Of a stretch of DNA of 64,000 nt, positions 18,454 through 53,299 are shown piece after piece. Source of the DNA: Rufibacter sp. DG15C (GTDB lineage: Bacteria > Bacteroidota > Bacteroidia > Cytophagales > Hymenobacteraceae); the NCBI RefSeq assembly GCF_001577755.1, contig NZ_CP010776.1:2666001-2730000 (forward strand), in the 5' to 3' direction. Numbering within the stretch: the first letter of the stretch is position 1; each line of letters starts with the position of its first letter. The position numbers were made by a program, and so were the translations under genes. The notes beneath the pieces are model-generated. The model was not told the origin of the DNA. It worked only from the letters and a program-made list of their open reading frames with translations, and did no database searches.

Positions 18454-18472
18454 CGAAAACAGGCCAAAAACG
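18454..18472. repeat. Half copy of the TTTTTGGCCTG inverted repeat
   Basis: Only the right arm, AAAACAGGCCAAAAACG, is present, 10 bases upstream of the TPR gene start. The left arm is missing, replaced by the start of the coding region. Confidence 0.65.
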
Positions 18473-18573
18473 GTTAGCTGACCCGCCAATGTAAAGGGTT
18501 TAGGGTAAAACGTTTGCGTTCCCACAACAAGTACATGTCAAACTAGGTTTCATACCGATGTCTTGGCTAGAAT

Positions 18574-18610
18574 GTTTTTCGCTTGTTTTGGCAAAAGTAG
18601 GCCAAAAACG
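18574..18610. repeat. TTTTTGGCCTG inverted repeat, copy 1
   Basis: Arms GTTTTTCGCTTG and TAGGCCAAAAACG with a degenerate centre. It lies between two divergent genes, unlike most copies. A minus-strand promoter-like CAAAAGTA falls inside it. Confidence 0.65.
18592..18599 (-). promoter_or_regulatory. Possible -7 box for the TPR gene
   Basis: On the minus strand the sequence reads TACTTTTG, matching the Bacteroidota TAnnTTTG consensus, about 150 bases before the TPR start. It overlaps a repeat copy. Support is from the match alone. Confidence 0.35.
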
Positions 18611-18711
18611 GGATTCGCTATTACAGTACTTAGTTAAATGCAATTATACTTATGGGGTTGGTGCAAAAATCTACTTTCAGTTAGTGTTGGTCCCATATTA
18701 AATTAAGCCTT

Positions 18712-18719
18712 TACCTTTG
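18712..18719 (+). promoter_or_regulatory. -7 promoter box for the M42 peptidase gene
   Basis: TACCTTTG matches TAnnTTTG exactly, 21 bases before the ATG. A TTG at 18687-18689, 22 bases upstream, can serve as the -33 element. The 5' leader would be very short. Confidence 0.6.
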
Positions 18720-18740
18720 ATATAGTAATCACAACACCAT

Positions 18741-19655
18741 ATGAAACTACTCAAACAGCTTTGTCAGATACATGCGCCCTCTGGGAACGAAGTGCAAATG
18801 AAGGAATTCTTGTTACGCTATTTACAAGAGAACCAACAGCAATGGAAGGTACAACCCCAGCTCATGCATGGGAAAGGTTTTCAGGATTGCCTGTTGTTGG
18901 TATTCGGGAAGCCACGGACGGTCATCTTTGCGCACATGGATTCCATTGGGTTCATGGTCCGGTACGGCAAGCAATTGATTAGAATCGGCGGGCCGGTTCT
19001 GGAGGATGGAACTACCTTGGTGGGGGAGGACAGCCAAGGCAAAATTGAATGCACCCTCAGGGTAGACGAAGAAGAGCACCAACTCACCTATGAGTTTGAG
19101 CGGGAGATTGAGCGCGGCACCGAACTGGTGTTTAAATGCGATTACAGGGAGACAGAAGAAACTGTGCAATCCTGCTACCTAGATAATAGGCTAGGCGTCT
19201 GGAGTGCTTTGCAGGTGGCCAAAACGCTGGAAGACGGTGTTATTGCCTTCGGGTGCTGGGAAGAGACCGGTGGTGGATCTGTGGGTTACCTGGCCAAGTA
19301 CATCCATGAGCAATTTGGCGTGACGCAGGCACTAGTAGCAGACATCACGTGGGTTACCGAAGGTGTGCAGGCTGGGCATGGCGTTGCCATTTCACTCAGG
19401 GACTCTTTGATTCCGCGCCGAAGCTTTGTGCAGAAGATTATTCAGATAGCCAAAGAGGCGCAGATTCCATTCCAAATAGAGGTAGAGGACGCCGGTGGCT
19501 CAGACGGCAAAGAACTACAGCGCGGGGACATTCCCTGGGATTGGTGCTTTATAGGCGCGCCAGAAGACCATGTGCATTCGCCTAATGAGCTAGTCCACAA
19601 GCATGACATTCAGGCGATGGTAGATTTGTATAAGGTTTTGATGAAGAGGCTTTAA
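18741..19655 (+). CDS. M42-family metallo-aminopeptidase-like protein
   Basis: A 304-residue cytosolic enzyme of the glutamyl-aminopeptidase/endoglucanase M family. Metal ligands are visible in order: VIFAHMDSIGF (His and Asp), CYLDNRLGVW (bridging Asp), CWEETGGGS (catalytic Glu and ligand Glu), VADITWV (Asp) and EDHVHSPNELVHKHDI (last His). It is slightly shorter than the usual 340-360 residues, with a compact PDZ-like insert. Such enzymes remove N-terminal residues from short peptides. It is monocistronic with its own promoter. Confidence 0.88.
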   Translation: MKLLKQLCQIHAPSGNEVQMKEFLLRYLQENQQQWKVQPQLMHGKGFQDCLLLVFGKPRTVIFAHMDSIGFMVRYGKQLIRIGGPVLEDGTTLVGEDSQGKIECTLRVDEEEHQLTYEFEREIERGTELVFKCDYRETEETVQSCYLDNRLGVWSALQVAKTLEDGVIAFGCWEETGGGSVGYLAKYIHEQFGVTQALVADITWVTEGVQAGHGVAISLRDSLIPRRSFVQKIIQIAKEAQIPFQIEVEDAGGSDGKELQRGDIPWDWCFIGAPEDHVHSPNELVHKHDIQAMVDLYKVLMKRL

Positions 19656-19707
19656 GATTGTTTTTTAGTTTGAGAGGAGTAAGTGGTTTTTAGGTGAAAG
19701 TAGAACG

Positions 19708-20343
19708 CTATTTTCTCTCAAGCTTCTTTACCGGATTGCCAATATAAACTCCTGCCTCTATTATATCTTTAACTACTACACCGCCCATTCCAATTGTAAC
19801 ATTTTCACATATTTTAATTCCTTGTTTTACTGCTGTTTTAGTTCCAAAATAAACACAATCACCGAATTCACAATTGCCACTAATATTGGCAGCTGGAGCC
19901 GTAGTGAAATAGTTTCCAATCTCGCAATCATGGCCAATGGTAGTGTTTAGATTTAAATGCGCATGCTTGCCAATTCTTATGTTACAAGTGAGTATGGTGC
20001 CAGCTGTCACTACACTTCCCTCTCCAATTTCAACCCATTGAGAAATCACAGCTGAAGGGTGGATAATGGTTGCGTAAGTGGTACTAGAAGGTAAGTTTTC
20101 TACAATCTTTTTCCTAGCCAATGGGTCTCCTACAGCAACCACAACATCATATAATACAGGATTGAATTTTGATTCAGGAATCACCTCAATGCCCAGTATC
20201 CGGGGTTCATTATAGAATTCATCATTAACCATAAAACATGCAACGTCTTCTATTTTCAGATTCTTAGCAGATATACTATCTATTAGACAGCATAGTACTT
20301 CTCTACCAAATCCACCTGTTCCAACTATGCAAATTTTTTTCAT
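19708..20343 (-). CDS. NeuD/PglD-type sugar O/N-acetyltransferase
   Basis: A 211-residue protein. An N-terminal Rossmann-like domain (KKICIVGTGGFGREVLCCLID) is followed by a left-handed beta-helix of hexapeptide repeats such as IGEGSVVTAGTILTCNIRIG, IGHDCEIGNYFTTAPAANIS and VTIGMGGVVVKDIIEAGVY. The His of TTIGHDCEIG is the expected catalytic base. This family acetylates sialic acid or bacillosamine precursors. No sialic-acid genes are nearby. It stands alone with AT-richer codons than its neighbours, suggesting a remnant or transferred glycan gene. Confidence 0.88.
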   Translation of the reverse strand: MKKICIVGTGGFGREVLCCLIDSISAKNLKIEDVACFMVNDEFYNEPRILGIEVIPESKFNPVLYDVVVAVGDPLARKKIVENLPSSTTYATIIHPSAVISQWVEIGEGSVVTAGTILTCNIRIGKHAHLNLNTTIGHDCEIGNYFTTAPAANISGNCEFGDCVYFGTKTAVKQGIKICENVTIGMGGVVVKDIIEAGVYIGNPVKKLERK

Positions 20344-20933
20344 TTGAGTTAAGTCAAAAAAATTTTTTTGATTTTAAGGTCTGTTTTCATTAACCCAGGA
20401 GTCAATCGTGCACCATTGCTTAAGGTTAAAGGAAACTTCATTTTACTAAAAGAATCCATTAATCTACAATAGTGCATCGAAGGATACAATTTCACACCGA
20501 ATTTAAGAAATTCTACCTTGCTCCAAACCTGGAATTGGGTAAATATAAATAAGGTTCAAGGAATAACAAGTATATGTGCCTTTAAAGACAATCCTAATTA
20601 TATGTTACAGTTAAGGATCTAATATAGAGAATATTTGTTTTTTAGTGGAGAAGCCTTAGCTTGCACAACAGACATAACTAGTGTCTGGCGTCAATTTTAC
20701 CAGTATCACTGCTAATGATTTGATTGCACAAGCCGATTGAAGGTTCTCCGGTTTTTCTGTTTTTGGCCTGTTTTCCAGAAAACAGGCCAAAAACGACTCA
20801 GAGCAAGAACAAGCTCTAAGTAGAAACCCAAGAGACAGGCACGAGAAGGAGGAAAGTTAGGCCATTGGCAGGGAAGAAACAGCTTACGCGTACGCTTACC
20901 AATACCTTTTACTAACAAACAAACCAATTCTCT
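20344..20933 (+). other. 590-base spacer without a gene
   Basis: Apart from one repeat copy at 20759-20795 I see no gene, tRNA or clear terminator here. The left two thirds are AT-rich like the NeuD gene, and the last 150 bases have core composition. An open frame on the minus strand (20712-21038) runs into the pyrophosphatase gene and is a shadow. Confidence 0.55.
20759..20795. repeat. TTTTTGGCCTG inverted repeat, copy 2
   Basis: The cleanest copy: GTTTTTGGCCTGTTTTC pairs perfectly with GAAAACAGGCCAAAAAC around a short CA centre. It lies 139 bases before the pyrophosphatase gene and is not close to any 3' end. Confidence 0.8.
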
Positions 20934-23180
20934 ATGCAGACCATTCTTTACGCGATTCCCGCTTTTGGCCTGCTGGCACTTTTGTACACCGCCGTCAAAT
21001 CGGCGTGGGTGAGCAAGCAAGACGCCGGCAATGAGCACATGAGCACCATTGCCCGCTACATTGCAGAGGGCGCCATGGCCTTCCTCAAGGCCGAATACAA
21101 AGTCCTCACCTATTTTGTCATTATCGCCTCGCTCTTCCTGTTTTACCTAGGCTACGTGAGCGAGAAGTCTTCGCCGCTTATTGTCCTGGCCTTCATCATC
21201 GGCGCTTTTTTCTCGGCTCTGGCCGGTTTCATAGGCATGCGCATTGCCACCAAGGCCAACGTGCGCACGGCGCAGGCGGCGCGTACCAGCTTGTCCAAGG
21301 CCCTTGATGTATCCTTTGGCGGCGGTGCCGTGATGGGTATGGGCGTGGCTGGTTTGGCCGTGCTAGGCTTAGGCTCGCTATTCATCGCCTTCTATTACTA
21401 TTTTGTGCAGCAGCATGGCGCCAGTGCCAGCAGTGAGGAGATGGAGCGCGCCTTAGAGGTGCTGACCGGTTTCTCCTTGGGTGCTGAAAGTATTGCCCTC
21501 TTCGCCCGCGTGGGCGGTGGCATCTACACCAAGGCCGCCGACGTGGGGGCTGACCTGGTAGGGAAAGTTGAAGCCGGCATCCCCGAGGATGACCCAAGAA
21601 ACCCTGCTACCATCGCCGACAACGTAGGCGATAACGTGGGTGACGTGGCCGGTATGGGCGCCGACTTGTTCGGGTCCTACGTGGCGACCATCCTGGCGAC
21701 CATGGTGCTGGGCCGCGAGATTACCGTAACCGATAACTTCGGGGGATTGTCTCCCATCATCCTTCCCATGCTCATTGCGGGTCTGGGAATTATCTTCTCC
21801 ATGATAGGCACCCTGTTTGTGCGCGTGAAAGAGGGCGGAAACGTGCAGGCGGCCCTCAACATGGGCAACTGGTCAAGTGTGATATTAACCGCCATCGCCT
21901 CTTATTTTGTGGTGGACTGGATGTTGCCAGAGCGTCTAAGCCTGCGTGGCTTTGAGTTCACTGACATGGATGTGTTCTATGCCATCATCATCGGTCTGAT
22001 TGTAGGAACCCTCATTTCTCTTATTACCGAGTATTTCACGGCCATGGGCCGGAAGCCGGTAAACTCCATTGTGCAACAATCCTCTACGGGTGCGGCTACC
22101 AACATTATTGCCGGTCTGAGCGTGGGTATGATGAGTACCTGTCTGCCTATCATTGTGTTGGCTGCGGGTATCGTCTTCTCCTATGCCATGGCTGGGATTT
22201 ATGGCGTAGCCATTGCCGCTGCCGGGATGATGGCAACCACCGCCATGCAGCTGGCCATTGACGCCTTCGGACCTATTGCAGACAACGCCGGTGGTATTGC
22301 TGAGATGAGCGAGTTGCCCAAAGAAGTACGCGAGCGCACCGATATCCTGGACGCCGTAGGAAACACCACAGCCGCCACCGGTAAAGGATTTGCCATCGCT
22401 TCTGCGGCCTTAACATCGTTGGCCTTATTTGCGGCCTTTGTGGGCATCTCGGGCATCAGTTCTATTGACTTGTACAAAGCGCCGGTGTTGGCCGGTCTGT
22501 TCATTGGCGGGATGATTCCGTTTGTTTTCTCAGCCTTGGCCATCAGTGCCGTGGGTAGGGCGGCCATGGCCATGGTGCACGAGGTGCGCCGTCAGTTCAG
22601 GGAGATTCCAGGCATCATGGAAGGAACCGGCAAGCCCGAGTATGACAAGTGCGTGGCCATCTCCACCAAAGCAGCCCTCCGTGAAATGATGTTGCCAGGC
22701 GCCATCGCCCTTATTGTTCCCTTGATTATCGGTTTTGGACTGCGTGGCGTGTTTGAGGAAGTGTCCAGCGCTGAAATCTTAGGTGGCGTTCTGGCAGGCG
22801 TAACCGTTTCTGGGGTCTTGATGGCCCTGTTTCAGTCCAACGCCGGCGGTGCATGGGACAACGCGAAGAAGTCGTTTGAGAAAGGCGTGATGATTAATGG
22901 CGTGATGGAGTACAAAGGCTCAGAGGCGCACAAGGCATCTGTAACCGGTGACACCGTGGGTGACCCGTTTAAAGACACCTCGGGCCCTTCCATGAACATC
23001 TTGATTAAGTTGATGTCCATTGTGTCTTTGGTGATTGCCCCGCACATTGCCGTACGTGACACTGCCGCACCTGCGCCTGAGAACCGCATAGACACTACAG
23101 AAACTACCGGTCAACTGCCTAAGGTAGACGCTGAGAAGACAATTGACTACAAAGCGCCCGCTGCTCCGGTAAAAGGCTAA
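20934..23180 (+). CDS. hppA: Membrane-bound ion-pumping pyrophosphatase
   Basis: A 748-residue, 16-helix inner-membrane enzyme that couples pyrophosphate hydrolysis to H+ or Na+ transport. The substrate site is plain: [20 protein letters not shown] and [20 protein letters not shown], with [15 protein letters not shown] and [19 protein letters not shown] further on. [12 protein letters not shown] has Ala where K+-independent enzymes have Lys, which marks the K+-dependent class. Whether it pumps Na+ or H+ is not settled by eye. A low-complexity acidic/proline tail of about 40 residues follows the last helix. A near-match -7 box, TACCTTTT, lies at 20904-20911. Confidence 0.96.
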
Positions 23181-23204
23181 GCCTCTGCCGGTCACGGTCC
23201 CCGT

Positions 23205-23236
23205 AAAAAGCCCTTTTCCCTAGAAGAGGGCTTTTT
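23205..23236 (+). terminator. Terminator after hppA
   Basis: AAAAAGCCCTTTTC pairs with GAAGAGGGCTTTTT with minor mismatches, 25 bases after the stop. It ends in a T5 run and TGCTTTT. Confidence 0.85.
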
Positions 23237-23290
23237 GCTTTTATATTCAAGCGGTTTTCCCCATTTTTGAATTCGTCTTTCGTTACCGCA

Positions 23291-23827
23291 ATGCACCAGC
23301 CCATCACCATCCACGATAAACAGTTCAGTCTTTACATACCAGAGCGCCGCATCCAACATAGCGTAGAAGTGGTAGCCGCCCGTATCAGCCATGACTACCG
23401 GGGAAAACAGCCCTTATTTTTGGCGGTTCTCAACGGTTCTTTCATGTTCGCCTCAGACCTCATGAAGGAGATGAGCATTCCGTGTGAGATATCCTTCATC
23501 AAGCTGTCTTCTTATGCAGACATGAAAAGCACGGGCAAGGTCAAAGAAATTATGGGTCTGAACCAGGACATTGAAGGGCGCCATGTGGTAATAGTAGAGG
23601 ACATTGTGGACACTGGGAATACCATTGCCGGCCTGCTGCCGCAGTTGCGTGAGAAAGGCGTAGCCTCCGTTGAAGTGGCTACCATGCTCATCAAGCCCGA
23701 GTGCCTGGAGCACAACCTCTCCATCAAGTACCCGGCCATCTCGGTGCCCGGCGAGTTTGTGGTGGGCTACGGCTTGGATTACAACGGCTTGGGACGTAAC
23801 CTTAGAGACATCTATAAAGTAATGTAG
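23291..23827 (+). CDS. hpt: Hypoxanthine phosphoribosyltransferase
   Basis: A 178-residue purine-salvage enzyme that joins hypoxanthine or guanine to PRPP to give IMP or GMP. The PRPP motif is VVIVEDIVDTGNTIAGLLPQL. PLFLAVLNGSFMFASDLMKE is the pyrophosphate loop, and SSYADMKSTGKVKEI the flexible catalytic loop. FVVGYGLDYNGLGRNL near the end is the base-binding region. The frame opens at a TTG at 23267, but the ATG at 23291 gives the normal family length. Adenylate kinase follows, separated by a repeat copy. Confidence 0.93.
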   Translation: MHQPITIHDKQFSLYIPERRIQHSVEVVAARISHDYRGKQPLFLAVLNGSFMFASDLMKEMSIPCEISFIKLSSYADMKSTGKVKEIMGLNQDIEGRHVVIVEDIVDTGNTIAGLLPQLREKGVASVEVATMLIKPECLEHNLSIKYPAISVPGEFVVGYGLDYNGLGRNLRDIYKVM

Positions 23828-23841
23828 CGTCTAAAGCCTTC

Positions 23842-23879
23842 CGTTTTTGGCCTGTTTTCCAGAAATCAGACCAAAAACG
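23842..23879. repeat. TTTTTGGCCTG inverted repeat, copy 3
   Basis: Arms CGTTTTTGGCCTGTTTTC and GAAATCAGACCAAAAACG, starting 15 bases after the hpt stop. No other terminator is visible for hpt. Confidence 0.8.
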
Positions 23880-23935
23880 CGAGCCCCCTGCCAGGAACTC
23901 TTCCAATAGTCCTGTGGTTTGCAAGATTTAATTCT

Positions 23936-23943
23936 TATTTTTG
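23936..23943 (+). promoter_or_regulatory. -7 promoter box for adk
   Basis: TATTTTTG fits TAnnTTTG, 22 bases before the adk ATG. The nearest TTTG upstream (23918-23921) is closer than usual for a -33 element. Confidence 0.45.
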
Positions 23944-23965
23944 CTCTTTCTCTACCAATCAACAC

Positions 23966-24547
23966 ATGCTGAACATCGTACTATTTGGTCCTCCAGGTGC
24001 AGGCAAAGGCACACAAAGCCAGAAACTGATTGAAAAGTATCAGCTTATCCACCTGTCTACTGGTGATTTGCTGCGCTCTGAAATCGCGCAAGGCACCCAA
24101 TTGGGTCTTCAGGCGAAGAAACTCATGGATGAGGGCCTCTTGGTGCCAGATGAAGTGGTGATTGGCATGATTGAAAGCAAAATAGCGGACAACCGCACCG
24201 CTGCCGGTTTCATCTTTGACGGCTTTCCGCGCACTGTGCCCCAGGCCGAAGCGCTGGACCAACTGTTGCAGAAATACGACCAGGGCATTAGCTGCATGAT
24301 TGCCCTGCAGGTAGACGAAGAGGAATTGACCAAGCGTCTGTTGCTGCGTGGCCAGACCTCGGGTAGACCAGATGACGCAGATGAGACCCTCATCAGAAAG
24401 CGGGTGCAGGAATACAACACCAAGACTACTCCCGTGGCAGATTATTACGCCCAGCAAGGCAAGTTCTACGCCGTGGACGGGATTGGTGAGATTGAAGAAA
24501 TCTTCAGCAAAAGCTGTGAAATTATAGAGGCCTGCCAAGTGGCGTAG
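23966..24547 (+). CDS. adk: Adenylate kinase
   Basis: A 193-residue cytosolic enzyme catalysing ATP + AMP to 2 ADP. It has the P-loop FGPPGAGKGTQSQ, STGDLLRSEI (AMP site), GFIFDGFPRTVPQAE and a short LID segment RGQTSGRPDDADETLIRKR without zinc-binding cysteines. This is the short-lid form usual in Bacteroidota. The start is ATG with a -7 box 22 bases upstream. A terminator hairpin follows at 24573-24610. Confidence 0.96.
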   Translation: MLNIVLFGPPGAGKGTQSQKLIEKYQLIHLSTGDLLRSEIAQGTQLGLQAKKLMDEGLLVPDEVVIGMIESKIADNRTAAGFIFDGFPRTVPQAEALDQLLQKYDQGISCMIALQVDEEELTKRLLLRGQTSGRPDDADETLIRKRVQEYNTKTTPVADYYAQQGKFYAVDGIGEIEEIFSKSCEIIEACQVA

Positions 24548-24572
24548 CCTCCTTTTAAATAAACCTATTGTC

Positions 24573-24610
24573 TAAAAACCATCTGGTACTCCAATGCCAG
24601 GTGGTTTTTA
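24573..24610 (+). terminator. Terminator after adk
   Basis: TAAAAACCATCTGG pairs with CCAGGTGGTTTTTA with one G-U pair. The T5 run lies in the 3' arm. Confidence 0.75.
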
Positions 24611-24736: not shown

Positions 24737-24738
24737 AA

Positions 24739-25734: not shown

Positions 25735-25756
25735 GCCACATCTATGTTTTAAAAAC

Positions 25757-25804
25757 CTTGTCGTTTTTGGCCTGTTTCCTGGGAAACAGGCCAAAAACGA
25801 CAAG
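25757..25804. repeat. TTTTTGGCCTG inverted repeat, copy 4, with extended stem
   Basis: The core is CGTTTTTGGCCTGTTTCC/GGAAACAGGCCAAAAACG, nearly perfect. Pairing extends outward by five more bases (CTTGT/ACAAG) in unique flanking DNA, and ATTTTATTT follows. It begins 23 bases after the obgE stop and probably works as its terminator. Confidence 0.8.
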
Positions 25805-27806: not shown

Positions 27807-27844
27807 CGTTTTTGGCTTGTTTTCTGGAAATCAGGCCAAAAACG
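27807..27844. repeat. TTTTTGGCCTG inverted repeat, copy 5
   Basis: Arms CGTTTTTGGCTTGTTTTC and GAAATCAGGCCAAAAACG. It starts two bases after the dnaJ terminator stem, 84 bases past the stop codon. Confidence 0.8.
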
Positions 27845-30177: not shown

Positions 30178-30213
30178 CGTTTTTGGCCTAATTCTCAGAA
30201 ATGAGGCGAAAAT
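30178..30213. repeat. TTTTTGGCCTG inverted repeat, copy 6 (degenerate)
   Basis: Arms CGTTTTTGGCCTAATTCTC and GAAATGAGGCGAAAATC, with several mismatches in the right arm. It begins 44 bases after the natB-like stop. Confidence 0.65.
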
Positions 30214-30283
30214 CACATTGGCTTAGGTGTTATTAATGAATTATATGAAGTCTAGTTTTAGCTACAAGTAAGAAACAAATTAC

Positions 30284-31760: not shown

Positions 31761-31797
31761 CGTTTTTAGCCTGATTTCCAGAAAACAGCCCAAAAAC
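31761..31797. repeat. TTTTTGGCCTG inverted repeat, copy 7
   Basis: Arms CGTTTTTAGCCTGATTTCC and GAAAACAGCCCAAAAAC. It sits between two convergent genes and directly abuts the hairpin at 31798-31826. Confidence 0.75.
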
Positions 31798-31826
31798 AAA
31801 AGGCCTGCTCATAGAGCAGGCCTTTT
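31798..31826. terminator. Bidirectional terminator between convergent genes
   Basis: AAAAGGCCTGCTC pairs with GAGCAGGCCTTTT with a three-base loop. On the plus strand T4 is in the stem. On the minus strand the hairpin is followed by TGTTTTTGGG from the adjoining repeat. Confidence 0.85.
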
Positions 31827-33807: not shown

Positions 33808-33845
33808 CGTTTTTGGCTTGTTTTGGTGAAAATAGGCAAAAAATG
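33808..33845. repeat. TTTTTGGCCTG inverted repeat, copy 8
   Basis: Arms CGTTTTTGGCTTGTTTTGG and GAAAATAGGCAAAAAATGG. It is one of three copies not placed near a gene end. It lies just upstream of the methyltransferase ATG. Confidence 0.65.
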
Positions 33846-36022: not shown

Positions 36023-36064
36023 AAAACAGAAAAGCCCCGCTCTTGAGCGGGGCTTTTCTGTTTT
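36023..36064. terminator. Bidirectional terminator between convergent genes
   Basis: AAAACAGAAAAGCCCCGCTC pairs perfectly with GAGCGGGGCTTTTCTGTTTT around two bases. The T-run continues into the overlapping repeat copy (36060-36096). It serves the plus-strand lipoprotein gene and probably also the convergent minus-strand gene. Confidence 0.9.
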
Positions 36065-36096
36065 TAGGCTGTTTCTGGTAAAAGAAGCCAAAAACG
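36060..36096. repeat. TTTTTGGCCTG inverted repeat, copy 9
   Basis: Arms GTTTTTAGGCTGTTTC and GAAGCCAAAAACG. Its T5 is shared with the terminator hairpin at 36023-36064. Confidence 0.7.
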
Positions 36097-39190: not shown

Positions 39191-39640
39191 ATGACGCTTG
39201 AAGTCCAAATGGAAGAACCACTAGCCACGTATACCATAGATACCAATGATGCCCGCAGAAGCCTGACGCTTCATTGGCGTGGTTTTGTTTCTAGTGAAGT
39301 GTACCATGAAGGCATGCTAGAGGCCCTTAAAACCTCCAGACAGGCAGGTCATCTTTTCTGGATTCTGGACACCAAAGACATGAAGGTCATCCGGCAGGCA
39401 GATCAGGAATGGACCGTGGCTACCTGGTTTCCGCAGTTCCAGTTGCTGGGGGTGCGTAAATTTGCCATTGTGGTGTCAGATGACATCTTTAACCAGATGG
39501 CCATCAGTAGCATGATTGCCAAGATACGGCCCCACATCCAAGCCACGGTAGAGTATTTCCAGACCATGTCCGAAGCCCTCAACTGGGTGCAGGAGTCTAA
39601 AGGATTGTCCTCTGATTCTAGTCTGTTTTCTGGGAAATAG
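39191..39640 (+). CDS. STAS-like small protein of unknown function
   Basis: A 149-residue soluble protein. The pattern TLHWRGFVSSEVYHEGMLEALKTSRQAGHLFWILDTKDMKVI resembles the SpoIIAA-like/STAS fold, and FAIVVSDDIFNQMAISSMIAKI follows. I do not recognise a named family. Its last eight or so residues and stop codon lie inside a copy of the long inverted repeat, so the C-terminus is shaped by that repeat. It is followed by two small unknown genes and a two-component system on the same strand. Confidence 0.65.
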   Translation: MTLEVQMEEPLATYTIDTNDARRSLTLHWRGFVSSEVYHEGMLEALKTSRQAGHLFWILDTKDMKVIRQADQEWTVATWFPQFQLLGVRKFAIVVSDDIFNQMAISSMIAKIRPHIQATVEYFQTMSEALNWVQESKGLSSDSSLFSGK

Positions 39641-39649
39641 GCCAAAACG
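39617..39649. repeat. TTTTTGGCCTG inverted repeat, copy 10, overlapping a stop codon
   Basis: The left arm is shortened to CTAGTCTGTTTTC, and the right arm is GAAATAGGCCAAAACG. The TAG stop of the STAS-like gene is within the right arm. Confidence 0.65.
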
Positions 39650-39661
39650 AAATTTCATTCC

Positions 39662-40133: not shown

Positions 40134-40171
40134 CATTTTTGGCCTTTTTTCTAGAAAGGAAGCCAAAAACG
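40134..40171. repeat. TTTTTGGCCTG inverted repeat, copy 11
   Basis: Arms CATTTTTGGCCTTTTTTC and GAAAGGAAGCCAAAAACG. It starts eight bases after a stop codon and lies in the leader of the response regulator gene. Confidence 0.75.
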
Positions 40172-42212: not shown

Positions 42213-42250
42213 CGTTTTTAGGCTGTTTTCCTGAAATCAGCCCGAAAACG
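42213..42250. repeat. TTTTTGGCCTG inverted repeat, copy 12, with a compensatory change
   Basis: Arms CGTTTTTAGGCTGTTTTC and GAAATCAGCCCGAAAACG. Relative to GGCCTG/CAGGCC, this copy has GGCTG paired with CAGCC, so both sides changed together. Confidence 0.75.
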
Positions 42251-42862: not shown

Positions 42863-42900
42863 CGTTTTTGGCTTGTTTCAAAGGAAAGAAGCCAAAAACG
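42863..42900. repeat. TTTTTGGCCTG inverted repeat, copy 13, with a compensatory change
   Basis: Arms CGTTTTTGGCTTGTTTC and GAAAGAAGCCAAAAACG. Here GGCTT pairs with AAGCC, again altered on both sides. It starts 18 bases after the stop. Confidence 0.8.
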
Positions 42901-43876: not shown

Positions 43877-44230
43877 ATTAAAACTAAACCCTAGTTTTAA
43901 GCGGGGAACGTTTTTGGCCTGTTTTCTAGAAAGCAGACCAAAAACGCTCCCTTTTTTTGTGCGGTATTGGGATTGTTAGGAAATGAGAACGGCATATCCT
44001 TCTTCCTCTATCTCGGGGCTGGGTCCAAGTCGGAAAGTCCATTCACGGTATTCTTTCAGGAAATAGTACGCATTTATTTAGGCCATTGGCTTTACTTATT
44101 AAGGAAATACTATATTTTTAAGGAGTCTTGTAAACCGTTAAACCCTTAAGCGGTTGTAACATAACCGGCCCAGGGCAGAGCAGTTATCTCATTAGCAATA
44201 GAATTCACCTTATTAAGCAGATAGAATACT
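43877..44230 (+). other. 354-base spacer before the inositol-lipid operon
   Basis: It holds a repeat copy with a T7 tail at the left. At 44133-44155 there is a near-palindrome AACCGTTAA...TTAAGCGGTT. A near-match -7 box TATATTTT lies around 44111. A 60-codon open frame at 43967-44149 has no supporting feature and I do not count it. Confidence 0.5.
43904..43958 (+). repeat. TTTTTGGCCTG inverted repeat, copy 14, acting as a full terminator
   Basis: The core CGTTTTTGGCCTGTTTTC/GAAAGCAGACCAAAAACG is extended by GGG-A/T-CCC pairs in the flanks and followed directly by T7 (43952-43958). It starts 28 bases after the stop, and it is the clearest case where the repeat itself looks like an intrinsic terminator. 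Confidence 0.8.
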
Positions 44231-47224: not shown

Positions 47225-48188
47225 CCTTCTCACGCAATAGTTCCAGCATGGGCTCGCCGTCCCGTTTGGGAATGGGGAAGTTGAGCAGTTCAGCGATGGT
47301 GGCGGCTACGTCTACTTGAGACCGGGCAATGGTAGGCGTAAAGCCTTGCTTGACATCGGGCCCCAGCATCAGCAAACTTATATGTCTACAGCCTTCGCAT
47401 AGGTCACCGTGCTCATTATAGCCGTTCCCGTTGTGCCGGCCGTGGTCATTGGTGATGATGAGGGTAGTGTTGTTTTTGTAGACAGAATCCTGTTGCAGCC
47501 ACTTCCATAGATCATAGGCATAGGTGTCACTTTGCCTAATGGCTTTCAAATACCCTACCCATTGCTCGGCGTGCGCCTGGCTGTCTGGTTCCTTTAAGTT
47601 AATGAGCACTAGCTTAGGATGGTGCATTGTCAGAATCTCCTTGGCCTTGCGCAACGTGACTGCATCTTCTCTATAGCCTGTACCAAGTCCGTTGTTGCCG
47701 CAATTGGTGGAAGGCGCAAACTGGGCGGCTGGTTCAGTAGACTCGGTTTTGGCCAGAATCTCCAATTTGTCTTTGCTGGTAATGATCCAGGCTTGCGTGG
47801 CAGGTTCTTTGGTGTGCTGCAGGTAATAATGGAAGACCGATGGATGATTAGGAATTTGAGAGCCGTTGTTGCTCAGGTATTGGTAATTGCCTGTGGTAAG
47901 CGCCACATGGCCGGGATTGGTTAATGTCTTGCCTTGGTTGTAAAACTTTGGATGAAAAACCCCCTGCGGGGCCAAGCGCTGAGCCATGTTAGGGATGAAG
48001 GAACGGTCAGAATCTCCCCAGGTATCTGAGAACCGCACGCCATCTATCACCAGCACCACCACATGTTTGGTTTGGTAGGCGCGCGTGGGAGACTGCATGA
48101 CCAAGGCCTTGTTCTGTTTGCAGGACGCTGCTCCCAGTAGCAAAACCCAAGCGCAGATCCAAAACCAATTTCTAGAGTATCTCTTCAT
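47211..48188 (-). CDS. Alkaline-phosphatase-superfamily phosphodiesterase lipoprotein
   Basis: A 325-residue protein. The signal ends LLLGAASCKQ, a probable lipobox. HVVVLVIDGVRFSDTWGDSDRSFIPNMAQRLAPQGVFH carries the first metal Asp and the nucleophile-region, TTLIITNDHGRHNGNG the metal-binding DH, and NEHGDLCEGCRHISLLMLGPDV the last His. This is the nucleotide pyrophosphatase/sulfatase-like fold; substrate unknown. The ATG at 48188 was chosen because the frame upstream (to 48263) lacks a signal. It converges on and overlaps the CDP-alcohol transferase gene, so the two may interfere at the RNA level. Confidence 0.85.
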   Translation of the reverse strand: MKRYSRNWFWICAWVLLLGAASCKQNKALVMQSPTRAYQTKHVVVLVIDGVRFSDTWGDSDRSFIPNMAQRLAPQGVFHPKFYNQGKTLTNPGHVALTTGNYQYLSNNGSQIPNHPSVFHYYLQHTKEPATQAWIITSKDKLEILAKTESTEPAAQFAPSTNCGNNGLGTGYREDAVTLRKAKEILTMHHPKLVLINLKEPDSQAHAEQWVGYLKAIRQSDTYAYDLWKWLQQDSVYKNNTTLIITNDHGRHNGNGYNEHGDLCEGCRHISLLMLGPDVKQGFTPTIARSQVDVAATIAELLNFPIPKRDGEPMLELLREKVKPE

Positions 48189-48266
48189 GTTGTCGGTGCC
48201 TTGCCTCTCACTTTTTACGCAAATCAGAAATCCAAGCCTACCCAGACCAAGGTAACTATTCAAGAC

Positions 48267-48302
48267 CGTTTTTAGGCTAATTTCTGGAAATCAAGCCAAA
48301 AC
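48267..48302. repeat. TTTTTGGCCTG inverted repeat, copy 15
   Basis: Arms CGTTTTTAGGCTAATTTC and GAAATCAAGCCAAAAC. Its last base touches the stop codon of the GH3 gene on the minus strand. Confidence 0.75.
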
Positions 48303-50104
48303 TAAAGTCCCTTCCCGTATTTGAAATGCTTGTTCACGGTGACGGGCAACTTGCCGGCGGGTTCTAACCTGCCCAGTACCAAAGAGGCCGCCGCTACTTG
48401 GATGGCGGGCAGTTGCTGGTACCCTACCAAAATGGAAGTAGCCTGATGAATATCCTGAAAGTGGTCTAAGGTATAGGCATTGTCAAAAAGTACCACCACG
48501 CTGCGTTTTTTTCTGGCCAGTTCATTGATGAGTGCCCGGTCCTCAGGGCCCAAGCCCAAGCTGTTGCTAGGCCTAATGCTGGGGCCATAAATGCTGAGGA
48601 TGATGAGGTCATGTTTGAGCAGGTCTTTCCTGAGCTGTTTGATATATTTGGGATTACTCTTGCGCGGCAAGAAAAACTCTTTGACCGCCAACTGCCGCTT
48701 TATTCGCTCCTGAAACACGGTGCTGCTGGTGGCGCCTACCGCCAGGCTGGCAATGCTTCGGCGCTTCTTATGTTCCACCGGTATTTGGTGCTTCTTGTTT
48801 TTGAGCAGGGTCAGGGAGCCTTCGGCTAGGCGGCGTAGGGTTTCATGTGCTCTGGACCGGTTCAGGTCCTGGTAGAGGCTGTCTAACTCTACGGGTTGGT
48901 ATTTGTTCAGGCCCACCCAATGCTTGGCGGCCAGCACCTTCTTGCATTTCCGGTCAATGTCTTTCTGGCTCAGCCGTCCCTGCCGGATGGCTTGTTTGAT
49001 GGCGGCCAGCGCCTTGGGTACGCTCACCAGACGTTCAATCACGTCGTTGCCCGCCTCTAGAGCCATCACTTCGGCCTCGCCGGGTTTAAAGTATTTGGTC
49101 ACGCCTTTCATGACCATGGCATCTGTGAAGATAAGGCCGGCAAAATCTAGTTCCTTGCGCAGCAGATTGGTCACGATAGGCTTAGACAAAGAGGCCGGCA
49201 GGTTGGCGGTGGAGTCTAGCTTGGGCATGTGAATATGGCCTACCATCATGCCGCCCACGCCGCTCTGGATTAAATGCCTGAATGGGTACAACTCCAGAGA
49301 ATCCAGCCGATCTCGGCCGTAGGGGATGATGGGCAGGTCATGGTGCGAGTCAACGTTGGTGTCACCGTGGCCGGGAAAATGCTTGGCAGTGGCAATGATG
49401 CCGTTGTCCTGCATGCCCAGCATCTGCGCCAGACTCTTAGAACTCACGTCCTCCTTGTTTTCCCCAAAGGCCCTATATGAGATAATGGGGTTCTGGGGGT
49501 TGTTGTTCACGTCCACCACCGGCGCGAAGTTCAGATGCATGCCCAACCGCTTGAATTCATAGGCCATCTCGGCGCCCATGCGGTAAATCAAGCTGTCATT
49601 GTTGATGGCCCCCAGCAACATGGGCAGCGGGTATTGCATGGCGCTGTCCATGCGCATGCCCACGCCGCTTTCGGCGTCCATGCCAATGAGCATGGGTACT
49701 TTGGAGGCGGCCTGTAGTTTGTTGGTGAGCTTGGCCTGCCGTACCGGCCCGCCCTGAAAGAAAATCAAACCGCCCACTTTGTAGCGCTTAACTAGGTTCA
49801 GGACGTCTTCTTCGTGCTTGGGGCCTTGGTTGGAGAAGACCTCAATCATCATGAGCTGGGTGATGCGCTCATCTGGGCTCATCCTTTGGAAGACAGAATC
49901 CACCCATTTGTTTTTTCTGTTTAGGGCCGTGATAAGGGCATTGGGGTATTTGATGGTGTCTTCGGGCTCAATATTGGTGGGTTTGAAGACCACGGTATGG
50001 TGCACCGGTTTTTCCTTTTTACACGACCAGGTAGACAACGCCAAAAGGGCCAGCAGAACAGCGTAAAGGCAGTAGGAAAGGGTTTTGGTTGGGGCAGAAA
50101 ACAT
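48302..50104 (-). CDS. Glycoside hydrolase family 3 (NagZ-like beta-N-acetylhexosaminidase)
   Basis: A 600-residue exported enzyme. An N-terminal hydrophobic signal (YAVLLALLALSTWSCKK) ends at a Cys with an imperfect lipobox. The TIM-barrel shows FAPVVDVNNNPQNPIISYRAFGE and ATAKHFPGHGDTNVDSHHDLP, the NagZ KHFPGHGDT..DSH motif with the catalytic His, and FAGLIFTDAMVMKGV with the nucleophile Asp. A C-terminal alpha/beta domain follows. Bacteroidota relatives often add a beta-lactamase-like domain, absent here. The ATG at 50104 was chosen; a longer frame (to 50311) is translated from a repeat copy. Likely role: peptidoglycan recycling in the periplasm. Confidence 0.92.
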   Translation of the reverse strand: MFSAPTKTLSYCLYAVLLALLALSTWSCKKEKPVHHTVVFKPTNIEPEDTIKYPNALITALNRKNKWVDSVFQRMSPDERITQLMMIEVFSNQGPKHEEDVLNLVKRYKVGGLIFFQGGPVRQAKLTNKLQAASKVPMLIGMDAESGVGMRMDSAMQYPLPMLLGAINNDSLIYRMGAEMAYEFKRLGMHLNFAPVVDVNNNPQNPIISYRAFGENKEDVSSKSLAQMLGMQDNGIIATAKHFPGHGDTNVDSHHDLPIIPYGRDRLDSLELYPFRHLIQSGVGGMMVGHIHMPKLDSTANLPASLSKPIVTNLLRKELDFAGLIFTDAMVMKGVTKYFKPGEAEVMALEAGNDVIERLVSVPKALAAIKQAIRQGRLSQKDIDRKCKKVLAAKHWVGLNKYQPVELDSLYQDLNRSRAHETLRRLAEGSLTLLKNKKHQIPVEHKKRRSIASLAVGATSSTVFQERIKRQLAVKEFFLPRKSNPKYIKQLRKDLLKHDLIILSIYGPSIRPSNSLGLGPEDRALINELARKKRSVVVLFDNAYTLDHFQDIHQATSILVGYQQLPAIQVAAASLVLGRLEPAGKLPVTVNKHFKYGKGL

Positions 50105-50250
50105 GGGAGTACGTAGGTTTGCCAAAATAGCATCGGCATGGACTTGTACTGTCAATGCAACGTAAGAGTTGCGGCCAAGGCCCGTTGTTAAACTTCTTCT
50201 GTTCTGCTTAGAAATTCTAATTGAATTGGATAGGCCAACAGAAAATGCTC

Positions 50251-50298
50251 TTCTTCGTTTTTGGCCTAATTTCCAGAAAACAGCCCAAAAACGAAGAA
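50251..50298. repeat. TTTTTGGCCTG inverted repeat, copy 16, with extended stem
   Basis: Core CGTTTTTGGCCTAATTTCC / GAAAACAGCCCAAAAACG plus five further pairs in the flanks (TTCTT/AAGAA). It lies 53 bases past the stop of the dienelactone hydrolase gene on the minus strand. Confidence 0.8.
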
Positions 50299-50350
50299 GA
50301 GGAAGCTGCATGCCGCCACTTCCTCTTCCTGTAAGATTTGTAAGGCCTTC

Positions 50351-51133
50351 CTATTTGAAAATTTCTGCGAAGAATTGTTTCATGGCATCCCAAGAGCGTC
50401 TGTCGGCGGCGGCGTTGTAGGCGGCGCCTTTGCTGTTGTCATTACCAGCCTCTGGGTTTGTGAAGGCGTGTATGGCGTTGCTGTAGGCAATGAACTGGTA
50501 ATCTACTTTGGCGTCATTCATCTCTTTCCAAAATCCGTCCAGTTCAGCTTTAGACACATAGGGGTCAATGGCGCCGTGGGCTACCAATACTTTGGCTTTG
50601 ATGTTCTTGGCGTCTGCCGGGTTGGGCGAACCCAATCCTCCGTGAAAGCTTACCACGCCCGCCAAATCAGCGCCGCTGCGGGCTAGTTCCAACACCGTGG
50701 TTCCGCCAAAGCAATACCCAATGGCCGCCATCTTCTTGGTGTCCACGTTGGCTTGCTTTCTTAGATGGTCCAAGGCGGCATTGACTCTGGCTCTAAGTAA
50801 GAGAACGTTGTTTTTGTATTTACCGGCCTCGGCGCCGGCGGCGGCTGGAGAGGTAGGACGCACGCCTTTTCCATAAATATCAGCGGCAAAAGCCACGTAA
50901 CCCATCTTAGCCAATTGATCGCAGCGTTTCTTGGTGTAGTCATTGATGCCCGTCCACTCATGCACCACCAGTACGGCGGGTCTTTTGCCTTTCAGGGCGG
51001 GGTCATACGCCAGATAGCCTTCCAGCGTGGTTTGGCCTTCTTTGTATTCTACCAGTTGGGTTTTAATCTGTTGAGCCTGTGCGGTGGTCATTAGAAAGAG
51101 AACGAAGGTGAAAAGCAAAACTAGTTTTTTCAT
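50351..51133 (-). CDS. Dienelactone-hydrolase-family alpha/beta hydrolase, exported
   Basis: A 260-residue protein with a Sec signal (KKLVLLFTFVLFLMTTAQAQ). PAVLVVHEWTGINDYTKKRCDQLAKMGYVAF supplies the oxyanion strand and the early Glu. AAIGYCFGGTTVLELARSG carries the Cys nucleophile typical of dienelactone hydrolases. LVAHGAIDPYV has the catalytic Asp and SNAIHAFTNP the His. The substrate in the periplasm is unknown. It is followed on its 3' side by a repeat copy and then the GH3 gene, but each gene has its own spacer. Confidence 0.9.
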   Translation of the reverse strand: MKKLVLLFTFVLFLMTTAQAQQIKTQLVEYKEGQTTLEGYLAYDPALKGKRPAVLVVHEWTGINDYTKKRCDQLAKMGYVAFAADIYGKGVRPTSPAAAGAEAGKYKNNVLLLRARVNAALDHLRKQANVDTKKMAAIGYCFGGTTVLELARSGADLAGVVSFHGGLGSPNPADAKNIKAKVLVAHGAIDPYVSKAELDGFWKEMNDAKVDYQFIAYSNAIHAFTNPEAGNDNSKGAAYNAAADRRSWDAMKQFFAEIFK

Positions 51134-51267
51134 GATAGAAGTAGTAAAGTATGGAGAGTTTACAGATTGGACAAAATCCTAGCACACAGCGCAGAGAACC
51201 GGGTCAGCTTACTAACTTATAAGAAACCGCATTGTTTTGGTTGCAGGAGAAAGAGTCTGACTAGAGT

Positions 51268-51305
51268 GGTTTTTAGGCTGTTTTCTGGAAATCAGGCCAA
51301 AAACG
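51268..51305. repeat. TTTTTGGCCTG inverted repeat, copy 17
   Basis: Arms GGTTTTTAGGCTGTTTTC and GAAATCAGGCCAAAAACG, flanked by partly complementary CTAGAG/GACTAG. It abuts the terminator at 51309-51337, giving it a T5 on the minus strand. Confidence 0.8.
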
Positions 51306-51308
51306 ACT

Positions 51309-51337
51309 AGGCCTACCTCATGTAGTGAGGTAGGCCT
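51309..51337 (-). terminator. Terminator of the DUF2059 gene
   Basis: AGGCCTACCTCA pairs with TGAGGTAGGCCT. Read on the minus strand it is followed by AGTCGTTTTTGG, where the T5 comes from the adjacent repeat. Confidence 0.85.
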
Positions 51338-51368
51338 TGCCTTAAAAAACGGTTACATCAACAATTGC

Positions 51369-51824
51369 TTAGTTGTCCTGCATCTTCTTCTGCAGAATCT
51401 GTTGTAGCTCCATCAGGTGCGGCTGAATCTTGGACTGGCCCAACTGCGCGCCGCGCAAGGTGAGCGTGCTTTGCTTGGCAGCCAATTTCTTGCCGGTGGG
51501 CGTCTTAAAGAAAACGGTCATGTCTTTGAGCTCCTTCTCGGTGAACTCCTCCATGTACATTTTGATCATGTCCTCTTTGAGGGCATCCCAGCTCATGTAT
51601 TTGGCAAAGAAGGAACGCACCTCTATTTCGGCGTCTTTCATGGCCGGCATCTGGTCCATTTGCAGGGTGAGCATCTGCTGCAGGTTGGTGTCTACCGTTT
51701 TGGGAGTGTCCATGGTCAACAAGAGGGTTTCTGCGGCTTTGTAGTGACTAGAAGTGGCTTGCGCCTGCGCGCCGCCCACGGTGGCCAGCAACAGAAGCAG
51801 ACCCAGTAAAAATGATTTTTTCAT
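51369..51824 (-). CDS. DUF2059-domain periplasmic protein
   Basis: A 151-residue protein with a Sec signal (KKSFLLGLLLLLATVGGAQAQA). The mature part is helical, with the DUF2059 core MYMEEFTEKELKDMTVFFKTPTGKKLAAKQ near the C-terminus. The function of this family is unknown. The ATG at 51824 was chosen because the frame upstream (to 51857) has no signal; a -7-like box sits at 51924-51931. It diverges from the Nudix gene. Confidence 0.85.
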   Translation of the reverse strand: MKKSFLLGLLLLLATVGGAQAQATSSHYKAAETLLLTMDTPKTVDTNLQQMLTLQMDQMPAMKDAEIEVRSFFAKYMSWDALKEDMIKMYMEEFTEKELKDMTVFFKTPTGKKLAAKQSTLTLRGAQLGQSKIQPHLMELQQILQKKMQDN

Positions 51825-51923
51825 AAAATAAATAATTACGGTATCATGTACGCACATTTGTGCCCGGCGGCCTTAATCTTGCCAATTCTTTCCGAAGCGT
51901 TGTACACAAACCAGCCCCGCACA

Positions 51924-51931
51924 CAAACGTA
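51924..51931 (-). promoter_or_regulatory. -7 promoter box for the DUF2059 gene
   Basis: On the minus strand TACGTTTG fits TAnnTTTG, about 100 bases before the ATG. Confidence 0.4.
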
Positions 51932-51984
51932 TTGCCTTTGGCGCGTACAAGCCGCTTTTTCTAAGACTCAAACATTCTCTTTTC

Positions 51985-52521
51985 ATGAAAATAACCAAAA
52001 AAGAAACCGCTTATAAAGGTCATTATCAATTGCAGGTTTACACGGTGCAGAACGGGCAGGAGGAGTTTAAGCGCGAAGTCTTCCAGACGGGTGTTGCAGC
52101 CGCTGCCTTGGTCTTTGACACTGCCCAGCAAAAGTTCATCTTGGCCAAACAGTACCGTCCGGCCGTGGAGCAAGACATGGTAGAAGTGGTAGCCGGCATG
52201 CTGGACAGCCAAGATGAAAAACCCGAAGACGCCATCACCAGGGAGATTGAGGAAGAAATTGGCTACGCCGTAGACAAACTAGAGTTCATCTCTGAGTTCT
52301 ATCCTTCGCCAGGAGCTTGTTCAGAGAAAATAGTCCTGTTTTATGCCGAGGTCAGCCACCAGGTAAACGAGGGCGGGGGCAAAGACGATGAACATGAAAG
52401 CATCCAATCCATCTTATACAGCCCTAAAGAATTGGCAGAGAACGTGTTTAATGACGGTAAAACGTTCATGGCCGTGCAATGGGCCAAGGCCAACATCCTA
52501 CCTACACTTGCCCAAAAATAG
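51985..52521 (+). CDS. Nudix hydrolase (ADP-ribose/GDP-mannose pyrophosphatase-like)
   Basis: A 178-residue cytosolic enzyme that cleaves nucleoside diphosphate-sugars. The Nudix box is AGMLDSQDEKPEDAITREIE then EEIGY, with all metal-binding Glu residues but one extra residue between the Gly and first Glu. KQYRPAVEQDMVEVVAG precedes it and FYPSPGACSEKIVLFYAEV follows, as in the NudF/NudK group. The start is ATG. The true substrate is open; sugar-nucleotide control would suit a polysaccharide-producing cell. Confidence 0.9.
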   Translation: MKITKKETAYKGHYQLQVYTVQNGQEEFKREVFQTGVAAAALVFDTAQQKFILAKQYRPAVEQDMVEVVAGMLDSQDEKPEDAITREIEEEIGYAVDKLEFISEFYPSPGACSEKIVLFYAEVSHQVNEGGGKDDEHESIQSILYSPKELAENVFNDGKTFMAVQWAKANILPTLAQK

Positions 52522-52659
52522 ATAAACTGGGGGCGGGCTTTTCTGGGCGTAGCACGGAATATTGAAACTTGGCCTGCAGGACGGCACTAACTCTGTGGCC
52601 TTGGTCTCGTAAATAGGGTACACGTTTGTATAAGTATTCACCCTCAACCTTAAAAGACC

Positions 52660-53208
52660 ATGGCTGACGACAATAGAAATTCCGAGAATCAAGAAAACGA
52701 GAACCAAGCTAATAATAAGAACAAAGCCACCAATCAACCAACGGGCGGTTTTGCAGACCACAACTACGGTACCAAGGCCAAAGACGGCAACACGGCCAAT
52801 TATGATTCTCAAGGCAGAGAAGACATCAATGATGCCGGCGGCAACCTGGACAAGGGACAAGCCCATGATGACATAAACGGCGGTGGTGACATCTTAGGCC
52901 GTCAAGGCGGCGGACGCGGCGAAGCGCAGGGCTTGGGCAAAGTGCCTTCTAGCCCGGTAAGCCACACTCCGCGCGGCGCTGAAAGTGACAAAGACACTGG
53001 CCGCGGCACCCATGCGGGCGGGCTAGGTGACAGCCACAGCGGCTTTAAAGGAAACCACAACGGCAACGATGGTACCGGCGGCGGTAAAAGCAGCGGTAGT
53101 GCCGGCCACGGCAGTGACCCGGAGCAGCGCAAGCAGTCATCTGGCGGTACTTCTGGCAAAGATGATGTCAACAACCCTAACATTGCCGGTAGAGGCGGCA
53201 AACACTAG
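52660..53208 (+). CDS. Hydrophilic, glycine-rich, probably disordered protein
   Basis: A 182-residue protein with almost no hydrophobic residues. The N-terminus is Asn/Glu rich (NRNSENQENENQANNKNKAT), the rest Gly/Asp/Ser/Lys/His rich (GQAHDDINGGGDILGRQGGG, GGLGDSHSGFKGNHNGNDGT). It has no signal, membrane segment or cysteine. Composition resembles hydrophilins or stress proteins. Codon use is core-like and a terminator plus repeat follows the stop, which supports a real gene. No family recognised. Confidence 0.65.
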   Translation: MADDNRNSENQENENQANNKNKATNQPTGGFADHNYGTKAKDGNTANYDSQGREDINDAGGNLDKGQAHDDINGGGDILGRQGGGRGEAQGLGKVPSSPVSHTPRGAESDKDTGRGTHAGGLGDSHSGFKGNHNGNDGTGGGKSSGSAGHGSDPEQRKQSSGGTSGKDDVNNPNIAGRGGKH

Positions 53209-53227
53209 ACCCATTTCTTGTTTAGTG

Positions 53228-53263
53228 CAAAATGGCCTGTTCTGTAAAGGACAGGCCATTTTG
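53228..53263 (+). terminator. Terminator after the glycine-rich protein gene
   Basis: CAAAATGGCCTGT pairs perfectly with ACAGGCCATTTTG around a 10-base loop, and the T5 of the adjoining repeat follows. Confidence 0.88.
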
Positions 53264-53299
53264 TTTTTGGCTTGTTTTGGGCAAACCAGGCCAAAAACG
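53263..53299. repeat. TTTTTGGCCTG inverted repeat, copy 18 (last)
   Basis: Arms GTTTTTGGCTTGTTTTGG and CAAACCAGGCCAAAAACG. It lies directly after the hairpin and is the last copy before the second glycan cluster, which has none. Confidence 0.78.

Follow-up and report, generated by a model that had tools for sequence, protein, structure and literature searches.

Why should one 38-bp palindrome stand behind gene after gene along a bacterial chromosome? The question is raised by a window of 64,000 nucleotides, the whole stretch of DNA analyzed here, from Rufibacter sp. DG15C (contig NZ_CP010776.1, positions 2,666,001 to 2,730,000). In it a 38-bp inverted repeat, or dyad, most often of the form CGTTTTTGGCCTGTTTTCYRGAAAACAGGCCAAAAACG, occurs 18 times in full and once as a half copy. 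The same count had been given in an earlier note on this DNA, and two scans now bear it out. An arm scan for two 13-nt arms placed 12 bp apart, accepting 18 or more matches over the 26 arm positions, returned 18 places including 18435-18472, which is in truth the half copy; in five Markov-shuffled windows the same scan returned 0, 0, 0, 0 and 2 matches. A profile with a threshold of at least 16 bits recovered all 18 places and an extra one at 39613, on a stop codon. With genes called by a simple caller made for this analysis, used in place of an annotation and poor where the window is low in G+C, 15 of the 18 full copies lie on a stop codon or within about 90 bp of one, the exceptions being those at 18573, 20758 and 33808, as the earlier note had also observed. 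The explanation favored here is that the dyad is the site of a Rufibacter-specific protein which would mark or insulate the ends of transcription units, and we give this explanation as a whole a probability of about one half.

The 35-kb span over which the copies are strung is not special, as the same density is found across the genome. The DG15C genome (G000; 4,143,738 bases in one contig) holds 904 core matches with at most 3 mismatches, and a reversed control pattern holds 0. Bulk statistics were drawn from seven species, namely 40 spaced 20-kb stretches of DG15C (800 kb) and about 200 kb from each of six others. By profile, the 800 kb contain 319 copies, which extrapolates to about 1,650 per DG15C genome, and their spread is even (mean 8.0, variance 5.0 copies per 20 kb). 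Stretches richer in G+C tend weakly to hold more copies (Spearman 0.32, p=0.04); the stretch with the lowest G+C of the 40 (0.404; L021, G000:C1:100001-120000) has just 2 copies. Core matches are present in all 15 other Rufibacter genomes searched (19 to 1,041 each), whereas outside the genus 5 of 43 genomes have one apiece. A looser core gives 20 to 1,527 matches in 16 of 16 Rufibacter genomes and 1 or 2 matches in 4 of 134 other members of the family. One viral contig matched a core pattern of the dyad, and a blastn search of a plasmid collection with one 38-base consensus gave no match. The family is practically confined to the genus Rufibacter, as expected of the lineage-specific element that had been proposed from the window. 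Among the matches listed in searches of the open-access literature for Rufibacter palindromes or repeats and for palindromes in Bacteroidetes or Cytophaga, no title concerned the 38-bp element, most subscription papers lying outside the scope of these searches.

Across species the element keeps a common frame, approximately YGTTT-N3-GSCYRTTTTY followed by its mirror. Each half contains two related T tracts, roughly YGTTT at positions 0-4 and YRTTTT at positions 11-16, with GSC between them; the two tracts are 11 bp apart and fall on one face of the helix. If pairing between the arms were selected, a change in one arm would be expected together with its complement in the other. Among 282 DG15C copies, the arms agree as independent halves would at almost every position (for instance, 170 observed against 167.9 expected at position 9, 123 against 133.3 at position 12 and 147 against 145.9 at position 13), the exception being position 6 (z=2.8). 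When the seven species are pooled, positions 1-4 and 7-17 are free of covariation (|z| below 2), which is seen at positions 5 and 6 (z of 2.4 and 4.3), at position 0 (2.9) and throughout the flanking positions -6 to -1 (3.4 to 5.5). With the copies read in the direction of the gene, DG15C has 171 G·U and 166 A·C mismatches, and the seven species have 738 and 700 at positions -4 to 17. Of 164 strict pairs, 163 have their arms 12 bp apart. Half-sites seldom occur by themselves: 610 of the 626 in DG15C belong to full dyads and 16 stand alone, while lone half-sites amount to 26 in G004 and to between 7 and 16 in each of six species, about 8 false ones being expected. A few pairs of weak lone half-sites lie 0.5-3 kb apart, where they might flank a transposon. 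Independent arms at a fixed spacing, with G·U not exceeding A·C, are what one expects of duplex DNA recognized by a pair of like subunits; a typical copy acts like a double-stranded dyad and not like a hairpin. More generally, high-copy palindromes should not be filed as hairpins without testing the covariation of their arms.

The places of the copies are conserved, and so are some of their letters. Neighborhoods in 12 related genomes were compared around obg, with gaps under 40 bp skipped, only relatives keeping the same neighboring genes counted, and G013 as the sole relative to the right of about 43 kb in the window. Where a gap in the window holds a copy, these relatives have one in 84 of 96 cases; where it holds none, they have one in 7 of 74. 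In 4-kb loci from the 16 Rufibacter genomes, hpt is followed by a copy in all 16 and obg in 14, in letters that differ from one species to the next, and a few of these copies are weak. Of 712 orthologous placements, 493 hold exactly one element (118 hold none and 101 more than one), and within these 493, a choice that favors conservation just as detection by profile biases the rates toward conserved letters, positions 3, 4, 14 and 15 differ in 3-4% of comparisons and the flanks in about 60%. The corresponding figures for close pairs are 3-7% and 40-55%.

The bias toward gene ends that was read from the window holds in the 800 kb of DG15C and broadly in the six other species. For 301 arm-match copies in DG15C, density per kb is 4.4 in convergent, 2.4 in tandem and 1.0 in divergent gaps and 0.04 within genes, and copies occupy 64 of 84 convergent, 151 of 288 tandem and 27 of 90 divergent gaps of at least 60 bp. 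Tandem copies lie at a median of 35 bp past the stop codon; those nearer the stop make up 125 of 167 (83 expected), and 309 of 443 when the seven species are pooled. The bias is weak in G008 (23 of 41). Called genes contain 89 of 842 profile matches, 55 of them well inside and mostly lower-scoring.

Letters that are fixed while pairing is free, a fixed spacing, few lone halves and a conserved position point to a protein-bound duplex site, and the 38-bp element is probably one. Since the T tracts are one helical turn apart and are mirrored at a fixed center, a dimer or a dimer of dimers would be the natural reader. A place behind genes, strongest between convergent ones and independent of direction, suggests a boundary of transcription units, and if a protein does bind the dyad, such a role is likely. 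A multimeric DNA-binding protein specific to Rufibacter would accordingly read the 38-bp duplex, its dimer or dimer of dimers sitting on one face of the helix, and at some 1,650 places the bound complex would mark and insulate the ends of transcription units in both directions. It might do so as a roadblock, as an assistant to termination or by handling the supercoils that accumulate there. In about one fifth of the gene-end copies, an ordinary intrinsic terminator would also have grown around the element, which then forms its apex. If a protein is indeed bound at most gene ends, the result would be a system of marked transcription-unit boundaries based on neither hairpins nor Rho, for which we know of no clear bacterial precedent.

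The terminator-like minority deserves a closer look, as it speaks for a rival reading in which the copies are bidirectional intrinsic terminators throughout, their hairpin being the function and the sequence of its apex having been homogenised by chance. In a scan of 839 of the 842 elements (3 were too close to the end of a stretch), the stem is extended by locus-specific flanks by at least 4 bp in 136 copies, where about 24 are expected, and by at least 6 bp in 64, where about 2 are expected. Among the 443 tandem copies, 76 combine an extension of at least 4 bp with compensatory pairing, as do 48 of the 199 convergent ones, 124 of 642 together. In 33 of the 76 extended tandem copies, 5 or more of the 8 nt that follow the stem are T, against 8 on the mirrored side (p=7e-6); their pairing within the element is above chance (z=6.2), and G·U outnumbers A·C by 75 to 36 (p=0.0003). 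These copies are predicted to be co-opted intrinsic terminators with the dyad at the apex of the stem. The orthologous end of obg in Pontibacter has a canonical hairpin and T run in place of the Rufibacter dyad (7 of 7 loci; Table 1), which the same rival can claim for itself.

For the greater part of the family, the hairpin reading fares poorly. The 367 unextended copies among the 443 tandem ones pair at 0.570, against 0.571 under the null (z=-0.2), with 496 G·U and 484 A·C on the sense strand; among convergent copies z is 7.2 in the 48 extended and -0.1 in the 151 unextended. Only 60 of the 443 tandem copies have 6 T in the 8 positions downstream, and 37 have the mirrored A tract. Moreover, fixed letters and fixed spacing with free pairing are the opposite of what selection on a hairpin would leave behind. 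The suggestion of a terminator or RNA-end element made in the earlier note consequently fits the extended minority and fails for the rest, and terminators as a general explanation are unlikely. The border between the terminator-like copies and the others is not sharp.

Two further comparisons concern terminators near the element. The possibility that an upstream hairpin generally uses the left T run of the element as its U tract was rejected, as no general tendency appeared in four species; strong upstream hairpins (-9 kcal/mol or lower) number 8 in sense and 1 in antisense orientation at tandem copies, 2 and 7 at convergent copies, and 0 and 2 at divergent copies. On the viral contig L217 (1240-1312), a hairpin ending in CCCTTTTG directly precedes an element whose T run could act as a U tract. 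Canonical terminators at DG15C tandem ends were counted in sense against antisense as 63 against 37 of 145 with an element and 35 against 26 of 177 without one; elsewhere the counts are 34 against 11 of 58 in Pontibacter, 9 against 4 of 28 in Adhaeribacter and 41 against 14 of 206 in Hymenobacter. They are rarer in Rufibacter than in Pontibacter and near the level of Hymenobacter, a comparison that is not used as evidence here.

Several observations weigh against a protein-bound boundary site. When the best-matching copies are taken by themselves, positions 5-7 and 9 show compensatory pairing in five of the seven species (z of 5.9 in G006, 5.3 in G005, 3.7 in G000, 3.2 in G012 and, from 8 copies, 3.0 in G004; -0.1 in G013, with too few copies in G008), a covariation that the terminator reading would explain. 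Unextended convergent copies have 231 G·U to 168 A·C, so that some selection on hairpins may reach past the clearly extended subset; extended ones, conversely, are without a G·U excess (32 to 29). As to placement, the convergent density in G013 (1.22 per kb) is below its tandem density (2.47 per kb), and long divergent gaps are frequently occupied (23 of 37 above 500 bp). Two counts tip the balance neither way: at the ends of tRNA and tmRNA genes, a set of only 12 units, a copy lies within 250 bp downstream in 3 and upstream in 3, and the order of copy and promoter gives 41 upstream and 6 downstream, with 38.5 expected upstream. If a protein needed all 1,650 sites, its specificity would hardly be expected to drift into dialects. 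Finally, no binder was found among the matches to ParB_N or HU.

Those two families were the candidates tried for the binder of the proposed duplex site. A ParB paralog was rejected, as a single ParB_N match was found in each of 16 of 16 Rufibacter genomes and in each of 9 of 9 other genomes of the family; so was an extra HU, a family that is not expanded, Rufibacter genomes and those of other genera alike having 1-2 matches each. The central 16 bp of the dyad (TGTTTTCYRGAAAACA) resemble what we take to be a parS-like palindrome. Sites of the parS or Noc type number from a few to tens, and the Rufibacter element differs from them in its more than 1,000 sites, its additional outer arms and the lone ParB_N match per genome. 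Of the possibilities raised by the earlier note, a nucleoid-protein site is nearest to what the data favor, though the counts of ParB and HU are unremarkable and no protein was found. GapR of Caulobacter, which represents proteins that structure the chromosome at 3' ends, by the description in PMC8360656 recognizes overtwisted DNA with a modest correlation to AT-rich DNA. By that description it manages positive supercoils by a route other than the one proposed for Rufibacter, and is set apart by the long and specific dyad motif of the latter.

Although the frame is shared, the species write it in different letters. The interior of the dyad is TTGGCCTG in DG15C, TCGGGCTCA in G012 and AGGGGCTG in G005, and counts made with one single consensus differ widely between species, while profiles built for each species find 0.33-0.60 copies per kb in all seven. 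A locus of R. latericius (L085) gives 8 to 18 matches by six of the seven profiles. In loci of Pontibacter, Adhaeribacter and Hymenobacter, the sharp profiles match nothing and the two loosest match about as often as in shuffled sequence: in 450 kb of Hymenobacter these two found 5 and 3 matches against 1 and 0 after shuffling. The consensus is sharp in G000, G013, G012, G006 and G005, where identity within the species at variable positions is 0.56-0.71, and diffuse in eight other species (0.35-0.44). The five species with the sharpest dialects have smaller genomes (4.1-4.8 Mb) than the eight diffuse ones (5.3-6.2 Mb). In diffuse species, orthologous copies are more alike than non-orthologous ones (0.75 against 0.45 for G004 and G014); sharp species can show the reverse, the orthologs of G012 and G003 agreeing at 0.41 and copies within G012 at 0.62. 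Such a deficit of ortholog identity in sharp species is concerted change. Dialects offer a natural experiment in which many orthologous sites shift specificity together, and would allow a test of how a protein and its set of sites move in step. The most far-reaching form of the idea, that a fast-evolving protein and more than 1,000 gene-end dyads at fixed positions co-evolve as dialects and form direction-independent, protein-based boundaries on which hairpins have grown secondarily, is put forward very tentatively, and we hold it to be rather doubtful.

Dialects are also familiar from DNA uptake sequences (DUS) and uptake signal sequences (USS), units of 9-12 bp that are found singly as well as in pairs. 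In PMC3630211 and PMC1852404, the DUS of Neisseriaceae are described with more than 1,000 copies, dialects and inverted pairs within gene-end terminators. The Rufibacter element resembles DUS, and the USS of Pasteurellaceae, in all three respects as these sources describe them, and its sharp dialects have different letters in several species. It could by analogy mark self DNA for selective uptake and recombination and spread by molecular drive, its inverted pairs in terminators being a by-product. Yet the Rufibacter unit is a rigid 38-bp dyad whose halves are rarely found apart, its restriction to intergenic DNA is strong, with genic copies about 60-fold rarer per kb than those in tandem gaps, and PF00437, the family of ATPases of type II secretion systems and type IV pili, has no match above its cut-off in any of the 16 Rufibacter genomes. 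In 8 of these it is matched weakly and in part, and the family was found above the cut-off in 13 of 14 control genomes. An uptake signal is therefore quite improbable. Should the terminator-like copies be what they appear to be, they would constitute a second case, beside DUS and USS, in which intrinsic terminators have taken up a dispersed DNA signal.

A third possibility, equally remote, is that the copies are palindromic remnants of mobile DNA, akin to repetitive extragenic palindromic (REP) elements or miniature inverted-repeat transposable elements (MITEs), which burst at the base of the genus and were kept where insertion is tolerated. A presence throughout the genus with almost nothing outside is most easily begun by a burst, and tolerance can account for intergenic placement and a 3'-end bias. 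However, positions are conserved across the genus and constraint along the motif is strongly uneven, and in about 40 kb from each of three related species (G014, G003 and G004) no clean empty site was seen. For all 16 elements of G014, the compared span of both relatives contains an element, some of these being neighboring sites by eye; 19 elements of G003 include 2 that lack a counterpart in either relative and 2 that lack a flanking match. One of the two copies present only in G003 aligns without gaps to both relatives, from which it differs by point changes, and the other is not alignable. Between DG15C and G013, only 59 kb aligned, at 81% identity.

A comparison for such remnants, and the one drawn by the earlier note, is with REP elements. 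According to PMC3733652, these are palindromes of 20-40 bp in high copy for which roles in supercoiling, termination and mRNA stabilization have been proposed, and which need a REP-associated tyrosine transposase (RAYT) and a tag. The Rufibacter dyad is like REP elements and bacterial interspersed mosaic elements, as there described, in being a small, palindromic, extragenic and high-copy repeat. It departs from those with a RAYT in that its positions are conserved, its arms mostly do not covary, and DG15C lacks both a RAYT match and a tag. A RAYT-driven origin was rejected on 0 matches to Y1_Tnp (PF01797) in the DG15C genome, 5 of 14 control genomes being positive, and no one-sided GTAG or CGTC tetranucleotide was seen on either side of 157 copies in unoriented frequencies. 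The label REP-like is thus not upheld. The element, to go by its constraints, looks like a docking place for a protein and not like a selfish repeat, though it may conceivably stem from an ancient burst of mobile DNA as the genus arose, later domesticated.

Table 1. Copies of the 38-bp dyad in the window, with the terminator that takes its place behind obg in Pontibacter. The last column gives relatives with a copy among those keeping the same neighboring genes.
Feature	Position	Context	Relatives with a copy
Half copy	18435-18472	right arm 13/13, left arm 5/13; overlaps 5' end of gene 17170-18444 (-)	
Dyad	18573-18610	divergent gap; exception to 3'-end rule	
Dyad	20758-20795	divergent gap, upstream of H+-pyrophosphatase gene; exception to 3'-end rule	
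Dyad	23842-23879	14 bp past phosphoribosyltransferase (hpt-like) gene	9/9
Dyad	25762-25799	27 bp past obg; stem lengthened 5 bp by flanks	10/12
Dyad	27807-27844	83 bp past dnaJ	10/10
Dyad	30178-30215	44 bp past ABC-2 membrane gene	9/11
Dyad	31761-31798	convergent gap	7/9
Dyad	33808-33845	2 bp upstream of methyltransferase gene start; exception to 3'-end rule	7/11
Dyad	36059-36096	convergent gap	11/11
Dyad	39613-39650	on stop codon; degenerate left half; profile match only	outside comparison (gap <40 bp)
Dyad	40134-40171	7 bp past stop	10/10
Dyad	42213-42250	14 bp past histidine kinase gene	3/5
Dyad	42863-42900	17 bp past PepSY-like gene	4/4
Dyad	43909-43946	32 bp past SdiA-regulated-family gene	1/1
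Dyad	48267-48304	overlaps stop of glycoside hydrolase family 3 gene (-)	no relatives with same neighbors
Dyad	50256-50293	57 bp from stop of dienelactone-hydrolase-like gene (-)	1/1
Dyad	51268-51305	63 bp from stop of DUF2059 gene (-)	1/1
Dyad	53262-53299	53 bp past gene without Pfam match	1/1
Pontibacter obg terminator	loci L044-L046, L049, L050, L054, L067	well conserved, ATCGGTAG...CTACCGAT plus T run	

An Rfam scan of the window returned nothing that reached its gathering score. The two ends of the window, made up in large part of polysaccharide gene clusters, differ from its middle in being free of full copies. To the right, positions 53481-63706 hold glycosyltransferase and ABC exporter genes in a run. 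To the left, positions 1-18400 are low in G+C and largely taken up by a polysaccharide gene cluster, with genes for a UDP-sugar dehydrogenase, an epimerase, a flippase-type protein, an aminotransferase and glycosyltransferases, and are perhaps acquired DNA.

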